From positions 62,001-126,000 of the forward strand of contig MEEF01000010.1 in assembly GCA_001724355.1 (NCBI GenBank): DNA of 64,000 nucleotides. The letters run 5' to 3'. A program made the position numbers and the translations under genes. Positions 53,851 to 55,328 of this stretch are shown one piece after another. Each line of letters starts with the position of its first letter. Position 1 is the first letter of the stretch. A model generated the notes under the pieces. The model was not told the DNA's origin, did no database searches, and saw only the letters and a list, made by a program, of their open reading frames with translations. The stretch comes from Mesorhizobium sp. SCN 65-20 (lineage in GTDB: Bacteria; Pseudomonadota; Alphaproteobacteria; Rhizobiales; Rhizobiaceae).

Positions 53851-54456
53851 ATGACGAAGCGCTCAATCGGTCATTTGCTCCTGGCGGGCATGATTTCGCT
53901 CTCGATCCATGCCGCCGGCCCGCCGGCCGCTCAGGCAGCTCCAATTACTAACCGCATAGATGTCTGCCACGGCTATGGCTGTGCATTCCGGGCAAGGCTC
54001 TATCTCGGCGCCGGCGATGCCCAGCGCTTCGCCTCGATCCTGGCCGCAGGCAAGTCCTCGGCGGAGGCCGAGCGTGCGGCGATCGGTCAAGCCGTCAGCT
54101 ATTTCGAGAAGCGGGTCCAGCAGGTGACGGGCGTGCGCGACGAACCGAAGTCGGAGTTCGGGGCGTCAAAGGTCAAGGGCCAGATGGACTGCGTCGACGA
54201 ATCGACCAACACCGACACCCTGTTGCGCTACCTGCAAGGGCGCGGCCTGCTGAAGTACCACAAGGTAGAGGCGAGGACCTCGCGCGGGTTCCTTTTCGAT
54301 GGACGCTACCCGCACTGGACCGCGGTGATACGCGCGCCGGACGGTGTCAAATGGGTGGTCGATTCCTGGTACGCGCCGATGGGCGGCTTACCGGACATCA
54401 TTCCGCTCAGCGACTGGAAGCCGCGCGGCCTGCTCTCCAGCGGCGCGCTGGATTAG
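53851..54456 (+). CDS. Secreted hypothetical protein, transglutaminase-like candidate
   Basis: Signal peptide [29 protein letters not shown]; ordered C (MDCVDES), H (PHWTAVI), D (VVDSWYAP). Confidence 0.65.
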
Positions 54457-54490
54457 CCCGGGTCACAATTTCTGGGAGCCGAATACAACA

Positions 54491-54603
54491 ACACCCGCCG
54501 GGGGAGGAGGTCCGGCGGGTGTCGTTTTGATGGTCAGCTCCAGGGAGGAGGAGAGAAGCTGACCTATTCGCCGTGAGCCAGGGAGGAGGAGGGCTCGGGC
54601 GAA
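54491..54603 (-). ncRNA. Anti-SD stem-loop triad 3 (hairpins 54567-54603, 54532-54564, 54491-54522)
   Basis: Minus-strand loops CTCCTCCTCCCT, TCTCTCCTCCTCCCTGG, ACCTCCTCCC on stems of 5-11 bp. Confidence 0.75.
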
Positions 54604-54619
54604 ATTCCTTTGGCTAACT

Positions 54620-54730
54620 GCACCCGCCGGGGGAGGAGATCCGGCGGGTGCGTTAAGGTGGTCGGCTTCGGGAGGAGGAGTAAGCCGACCTATTCGCCAT
54701 GAGCCGGGGAGGAGGAACGGCCCGGGCGAA
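54620..54730 (-). ncRNA. Anti-SD stem-loop triad 2 (hairpins 54693-54730, 54660-54690, 54620-54651)
   Basis: Minus-strand loops TTCCTCCTCCC, ACTCCTCCTCCCG, ATCTCCTCCC; stems GGTCGGCTT/AAGCCGACC and GCACCCGCCGG/CCGGCGGGTGC perfect. Confidence 0.78.
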
Positions 54731-54775
54731 ATTCTTTTCGCCTGTTGAAGAGGGCGAATCTCTTTCTGGGTAACG

Positions 54776-54877
54776 GCACCCGCCGGGGGAGGAGATCCGG
54801 CGGGTGCGTTAAGGTGGTCAGCTTCGGGAGGAGGAGTAAGCTGACCGATCCGCGGGGTCGGGGAGGAGGTCGACCCC
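54776..54877 (-). ncRNA. Anti-SD stem-loop triad 1 (hairpins 54854-54877, 54816-54846, 54776-54807)
   Basis: Minus-strand loops ACCTCCTCCC, ACTCCTCCTCCCG, ATCTCCTCCC; stems GGGGTCG/CGACCCC, GGTCAGCTT/AAGCTGACC, GCACCCGCCGG/CCGGCGGGTGC. Confidence 0.78.
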
Positions 54878-54890
54878 AGCGGAAACTGAA

Positions 54891-55031
54891 TTAGATGGCG
54901 CGGCGAGCGATCGCCGGGATTTCACCGCGGTTGATGCCGAGGTCGGCAAGCTGGCGGTTGGACAGGCGGCCCAGCTCATTCACCGTCTCGCGATAAGCGC
55001 GCCAGTTGCGGTAAGTGCGGAGCAAGTTCAT
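54891..55031 (-). CDS. DUF1127 small protein (46 aa), copy A
   Basis: Hand translation MNLLRTYRNWRAYRETVNELGRLSNRQLADLGINRGEIPAIARRAI*; AAAGAGAAAG upstream. Confidence 0.92.
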   Translation of the reverse strand: MNLLRTYRNWRAYRETVNELGRLSNRQLADLGINRGEIPAIARRAI

Positions 55032-55073: not shown

Positions 55074-55214
55074 TTAGATGGCCTTACGCGCGACGAAGTG
55101 GATGTCGCTGCGGGTGATGCCCAGGTCGGTCAGTTCACGGTTGGACAGGCGGCTCAGCTCATTCACGGTCTCGCGATAGCGGCGCCAGTTGCGGTAGTTG
55201 CGGATCAGGTTCAT
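55074..55214 (-). CDS. DUF1127 small protein (46 aa), copy B
   Basis: Hand translation MNLIRNYRNWRRYRETVNELSRLSNRELTDLGITRSDIHFVARKAI*; about 33/46 identical to copy A. Confidence 0.92.
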   Translation of the reverse strand: MNLIRNYRNWRRYRETVNELSRLSNRELTDLGITRSDIHFVARKAI

Positions 55215-55259
55215 CTTCGTATCCCGTTCGTTTTCTTTTCGCTCTCTGTGTACGGGGCG

Positions 55260-55288
55260 TAGATAGGTCCGCTCTGACTAAAATTGAA
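55260..55288 (-). promoter_or_regulatory. Candidate promoter of the DUF1127-sRNA operon
   Basis: Minus strand TTCAAT-N17-TATCTA (-35 at 55283-55288, -10 at 55260-55265). Confidence 0.5.
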
Positions 55289-55290
55289 GC

Positions 55291-55328
55291 GCTATGCTCG
55301 CATAGCAGCAATGCGTTTTGTGCATTGC
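55291..55328. promoter_or_regulatory. Paired palindromes, candidate LysR-type regulator recognition and activation sites
   Basis: GCTATG-CTCG-CATAGC (55291-55306) and GCAATGC-GTTTTGT-GCATTGC (55308-55328), the latter containing TGCGTTTTGTGCA (T-N11-A). Confidence 0.5.

Follow-up and report, generated by a model that had tools for sequence, protein, structure and literature searches.

Three tandem copies of the ar14 small RNA family, each a triad of stem-loops, lie on the minus strand of the 64,000-nucleotide stretch of Mesorhizobium sp. SCN 65-20 DNA analysed here (the window), behind two co-directional DUF1127 genes, and we consider it likely (probability about 0.82) that this DUF1127-DUF1127-ar14 ×3 unit yields a regulated precursor of mRNA-silencing sRNAs. 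The RNA family, its strand, covarying structure, synteny, conservation, the single terminator-like tail, the linker signature and the conservation of the promoter are observed; the transcription, processing, regulator, targets and function of the array we infer as follows. A sigma70-like promoter, preceded by a LysR-type (LsrB/VtlR) activator box, would start the transcript near 55254; the two DUF1127 genes and the three triads would all be read, and the transcript would end at the last hairpin. The precursor would be cut in its A/U-rich linkers (at RNase E-like RNWUU sites near the spacer hairpin) into three-hairpin sRNAs of about 123 nt, whose CUCCUCCC loops would pair with Shine–Dalgarno (SD) sequences of the GGGAGGAG type and keep a subset of mRNAs from being translated, many of which encode transporters or solute-binding proteins. 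The main effect of the tandem copies would be more dosage or redundancy. The features are, in the predicted direction of transcription:

55311–55324, minus strand: LsrB/VtlR-type box TGCACAAAACGCAT (TGCA-N6-GCAT), a candidate site conserved at Hyphomicrobiales trmFO loci
55261–55289, minus strand: putative promoter CTTCAA-N17-CTATCT, the CTATCT part conserved in 38 aligned upstream regions
55074–55214, minus strand: DUF1127 gene, 46 aa (Pfam PF06568, 65 bits), first of the putative operon
54891–55031, minus strand: DUF1127 gene, 46 aa (Pfam PF06568, 62.9 bits)
54771–54887, minus strand: triad 1, the 5′-most ar14 copy (RF02344, 90.8 bits), with hairpins at 54849–54883, 54816–54846 and 54771–54811
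54737–54758, minus strand: spacer hairpin without the motif (UUCGCC...GGCGAA), then AAAAGAAUUU, a possible RNase E site (from the sequence and the linkers of relatives)
54615–54734, minus strand: triad 2, ar14 copy (RF02344, 93.5 bits), with hairpins at 54694–54729, 54660–54690 and 54615–54655
54486–54607, minus strand: triad 3, the 3′-most ar14 copy (RF02344, 100.9 bits), with hairpins at 54568–54602, 54532–54564 and 54487–54526

The array and its RNA family

The whole window contains nine matches to GGGAGGAG, all of them on the plus strand and within 367 bp (54502–54868); shuffled windows held 2.98 matches on average and one shuffle in 100 reached nine. Read on the minus strand, CUCCUCCC lies in the loop of every one of nine stem-loops grouped as three triads. 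These are the nine inverted repeats in three triads, each with the motif in its loop, that an earlier sequence-only reading had described, and the location that it gave (54491–54877) also holds, except that the hairpins reach slightly wider (54487–54883). The stem of the third hairpin has 11–15 pairs (for example GCACCCGCCGG/CCGGCGGGTGC) and, with UCUCCUCCC in the third loop of triads 1 and 2, the core common to all loops is CUCCUCCC. The motif-to-motif offset is 154–156 bp between triads 1 and 2 and 126–129 bp between triads 2 and 3 (the earlier reading gave nearly the same, 156 and 128–129 bp), and it is unequal because the spacer hairpin sits between triads 1 and 2 but is absent between triads 2 and 3. 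Comparable motif-less hairpins occur between triads in the linkers of relatives.

A scan of the window with all Rfam models gave three ar14 (RF02344) matches, on the minus strand only and each covering positions 1–123 of 123, at 100.9, 93.5 and 90.8 bits against a gathering cut-off of 58.8 bits. Each copy has the three hairpins, the CCUCCUCCC loops and the variable, covarying stems of ar14. The earlier assignment to an alpha-r14/cuckoo/CcsR type, for which an alpha-r14 scan had been suggested as the check, stands for alpha-r14 and cuckoo (three ar14 matches with DUF1127 genes upstream) but not for CcsR1 (RF02791), whose best score in the window was 49.0 bits, below its cut-off of 65.3 bits. 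CcsR1, 6C RNA and anti-hemB were all under their Rfam cut-offs and were rejected. The array belongs to a known sRNA family as a hitherto uncharacterised member, and the arrangement of DUF1127 with cuckoo RNAs is already known as CIN1; as in CIN1, the array of anti-SD (aSD) hairpins adjoins and is co-directional with short DUF1127 genes. Since ar14 is present in 116 of the 121 genomes of the host's taxonomic family, the element itself is ordinary. The genome of the window (assembly 81% complete, 3.68 Mb) has a further ar14 that passes the cut-off, on contig C92, and another, on C43, that falls short of it. The latter, a weaker ar14-like triad of 55.5 bits (L166:5346-5425, G000:C43), adjoins the 3′ end of a coding sequence resembling a phasin gene and lies shortly before a tRNA gene, so that it may be a 3′-UTR-derived sRNA.

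With ar14/NfeR1 of Sinorhizobium meliloti (RF02344) the units of the array share three CCUCCUCCC-loop hairpins with variable stems, a length of about 123 nt (here predicted) and an upstream LsrB-type TGCA-N6-GCAT box with a CTT..N17..CTAT promoter, but that RNA comes from one solo gene whereas here three tandem units stand behind DUF1127, the inner ones without a terminator-like U tail. Cuckoo RNA/CIN1 and Rhodobacter CcsR1-4 with ccaF1 likewise have an aSD array just downstream of a co-directional small DUF1127 gene and one end terminator (here putative). Each CcsR unit has two hairpins, against three in the units of the window, and the CcsR promoter is of the RpoHI/RpoHII type (PMC3927594, PMC10253847). 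The SmelA075 and SmelA099 families (PMC3927594) also carry CCUCCUCCC in each of three or four hairpins but are shorter than the nine-hairpin tandem. AbcR1 and AbcR2 resemble the array in that they are sRNAs of alphaproteobacteria, carry aSD-like loops, are activated by LsrB/VtlR and silence the mRNAs of ABC transporters (the last two being predicted properties in the window), but they belong to another family, are Hfq-dependent and have motifs that are similar, not identical (PMC10746234).

Structure, strand and folding

Alignment of 50 triads revealed two-sided, pairing-preserving changes in 21 of the 24 consensus pairs, with 216 two-sided cells observed against 60 ± 11 in shuffled and 15–40 in slid-partner controls, although it should be noted that the triads are related by descent and these counts are not independent events. 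The mean majority base in the same alignment was 98% in loop columns and 76% in stem columns, and the comparison indicates that the triad structure is under selection. Loss of the loops in close relatives was one of the outcomes that the sequence-only reading said would refute it, and close relatives do keep them; in some Aminobacter relatives the loop of the second hairpin is UUCCUCCC instead of CUCCUCCC. G-U cells outnumber A-C cells (52 against 27), a point in favour of the minus strand being the RNA, and the minus strand folds at z = −12.1 relative to dinucleotide shuffles as against z = −7.9 for the plus strand. A repetitive DNA element, or a plus-strand 3′ UTR or terminator of the gene at 53851–54456, would suit the TTTT that follows the outermost repeat on the plus strand, making it terminator-like for that gene, but the ar14 model matches the minus strand only, the compensatory changes and the G-U excess fit that strand, and the position behind DUF1127 genes is fixed in many genera. 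This explanation was rejected on the strand-specific model matches and the covariation, and we consider it extremely improbable; the same two results bear out the earlier choice of the minus strand as the RNA strand. In the minimum-energy fold of the whole 409-nt precursor the arms of different triads partly pair, because the second-hairpin stems are nearly alike, and the nine hairpins may therefore not all form before processing.

Gene neighbourhood

The stop codon of the nearer DUF1127 gene is 7 nt ahead of hairpin 1. The locus adjoins trmFO, whose product is 91% identical to Aminobacter anthyllidis TrmFO, pointing to Aminobacter or a very close relative as the source of the window. The order of DUF1127 genes and array beside trmFO recurs in Aminobacter, Mesorhizobium, Pseudaminobacter, Phyllobacterium, Brucella, Aurantimonas and others; Rhizobium, Sinorhizobium and relatives have the reversed order, with arrays ahead of the DUF1127 genes. 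DUF1127 proteins of Agrobacterium act on the PhoR kinase (PMC12501420), and Rhodobacter CcaF1 binds RNA and aids CcsR maturation (PMC10253847). The convergent gene 53851–54456 encodes a secreted-looking protein without a Pfam match. As TTTT also comes after the final hairpin (window 54491–54522) on the plus strand, that hairpin may be a terminator of this gene as well.

Putative promoter and candidate regulator site

When 38 regions 5′ of the first DUF1127 gene were aligned, two conserved features stood out, a −10 sequence CTATCT and an element that reads TGCAATGCACAAAACGCATTGCTGCTATGC in the window. The candidate box precedes the expected start of transcription by about 64 nt and, at sequence level, the region is of the NfeR1 promoter type (TGCA-N6-GCAT box with CTT...N17-CTAT), nfeR1 itself having an LsrB box TGCA-N6-GCAT at −72 to −60 and the promoter CTTAGAC-N17-CTATAT (PMC10746234). 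Box and −10 together occur three times in the 3.68-Mb genome and not at all in the reversed control. By itself TGCA-N6-GCAT is not above chance in the window (four against three expected), and it is conservation and spacing, not this count, that support the putative LsrB/VtlR-type box. The proposed promoter at this conserved position went undetected in a simple sigma70 scan. In appearance the conserved promoter is LsrB/sigma70-like, where the CcsR-type operon has an RpoHI/RpoHII promoter. The solo ar14 on contig C92 has a similar upstream element, TGCACAAAACGCAAAGCTCCTATGC, in which the second half-site is GCAA and not GCAT, as it also is in the Aminobacter counterparts of this copy, and the likeness of the two elements suggests that array and solo copy may be co-regulated. 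The Agrobacterium small-protein gene atu1667 is presumably a DUF1127 gene. The Agrobacterium LysR-type regulator VtlR is a direct activator of this gene and of abcR1 (PMC7486931). A conserved LsrB/VtlR-type promoter before DUF1127-ar14 arrays would join DUF1127 proteins, cuckoo RNAs and NfeR1 in one regulon.

Between the LsrB-type box and the −35 there is also a near-perfect palindrome, GCTATGCGAGCATAGC (window 55290–55307), the core of which is kept in Aminobacter relatives. Another TGCA-N6-GCAT box with CTATAT at promoter spacing was seen at L227 (G000:C63:3040-3102), with no Rfam family match near the box.

A probable single precursor and its proposed processing

The tail after the third hairpin has a mean U fraction of 0.54 in last triads (n = 22) as against 0.25 in inner ones (n = 43). 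In the window the tails of the triads are CCGTTACCCAGAAA, CAGTTAGCCAAAGG and TTGTTGTATTCGGC, and because a terminator-like U-rich tail is confined to the last triad the array is probably one precursor. The polycistronic precursor proposed earlier thus gains from this single tail and from the co-directional DUF1127 genes upstream. If the tandem were merely a local duplication and every triad a separate sRNA gene, complete with promoter and terminator, the end-to-end match of every triad to ar14 would be expected, and S. meliloti nfeR1 does have a promoter of its own (PMC10746234). The inner triads, however, are without a U-rich tail, and the short linkers are mostly occupied by the spacer hairpin and gave no promoter-like site in the simple sigma70 scan, so that independent genes appear very unlikely.

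The linkers between triads contain 103 RNWUU sites against 68.7 ± 6.5 in dinucleotide shuffles, the counts being drawn from related arrays and hence not independent. RNWUU resembles the RNase E consensus. By analogy with the CcsR RNAs, which are cut by RNase E out of a DUF1127 transcript (PMC10253847, PMC8625941), the precursor is probably cut at the RNWUU sites of the linkers. The array might instead act as a single multivalent RNA that is left uncut and serves as a sponge or general damper of translation, by competing with the anti-SD tail of the 16S or by titrating a protein or G-rich RNAs. What could suggest this is that one predicted transcript, with a single terminator-like tail, would carry all nine loops, nearly identical to each other, and that loops are far more conserved than stems. 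We give this some weight but think it unlikely, since the family often has three-hairpin copies that stand alone (one of them in the genome of the window), NfeR1 acts as a 123-nt RNA on specific mRNAs (PMC10746234) and the linkers hold RNase E-like sites.

Candidate target mRNAs

The three-hairpin units most likely silence a subset of mRNAs, by analogy with the ar14 member NfeR1, the nearest one to have been studied, which is LsrB-activated and Hfq-independent and silences ntrB and ABC-transporter mRNAs with three redundant aSD loops, by gene-specific pairing to ribosome-binding sites (PMC10746234). Mimicry of the 16S 3′ end or a general sequestration of SD sequences, along the lines of the sequence-only reading, is conceivable. 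The pattern GGGAGGAG-N4-10-ATG has 22 sites in the genome of the window and one in the reversed control, and the picture is similar in nine other Aminobacter genomes; any strong SD would be expected to show an excess of this kind, so the sites are candidates only. Transport proteins account for 9 of the 19 candidate open reading frames (at least 80 aa) as against 3 of 20 control frames with an AAGGAG site (one-sided Fisher p = 0.03, in a small test with a short control set), and six of the nine are solute-binding proteins. This richness in transporters agrees with ABC transporters being NfeR1 targets (PMC10746234).

Array size and evolution

Nine hairpins in one array had seemed exceptionally large to the sequence-only reading, a view that comparison with relatives does not sustain. 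By motif counts, nine are found at the trmFO locus in most Aminobacter genomes, in Mesorhizobium jarvisii and in Pseudaminobacter arsenicus, so that nine is usual in Aminobacter and present in several other genera, and larger arrays lie beside trmFO in Aurantimonas sp. VKM B-3413 (L145:2190-2697; twelve hairpins in four triads) and Aurantimonas sp. 22II-16-19i (L122:6084-6903; seventeen to eighteen hairpins in six triads). Rfam confirmed four ar14 copies in the former, while the copies in the latter were under the cut-off. At least one complete triad is present at 39 of the 80 named trmFO loci (one triad at 24, two at 10, three at 3, four at one and six at one). In a class-wide scan for CTCCTCCC motifs standing three close together, perhaps one genome (G380) besides that of the window had an array and the other matches were simple repeats, but the pattern was too strict and the near relatives sampled too few for a survey.

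Triads 2 and 3 of Aminobacter are on average 84.6% identical within a genome and 76.4% between genomes, while triad 1 retains its own identity; in the window triads 2 and 3 are 74% identical and the effect is weak. In a tree the triads of one genome group together in Pseudaminobacter, G108 and Aurantimonas. Such likeness within a genome is attributable to local duplication or homogenisation, and triads 2 and 3 homogenise within most species. A speculative reading, to which we attach little credence, is that arrays expand, contract and homogenise within species and that the number of triads at the trmFO locus (0 to 6) is an evolutionary dosage dial, large arrays being multivalent anti-SD buffers that broadly damp translation when LsrB/VtlR fires and not gene-specific sRNA sets. 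The natural series of one- to six-triad arrays makes the reason for the tandem arrangement directly testable. A separate array in Pleomorphomonas (L146:6528-6902) also has nine aSD hairpins, but with mostly dissimilar stems and no repeated triads.
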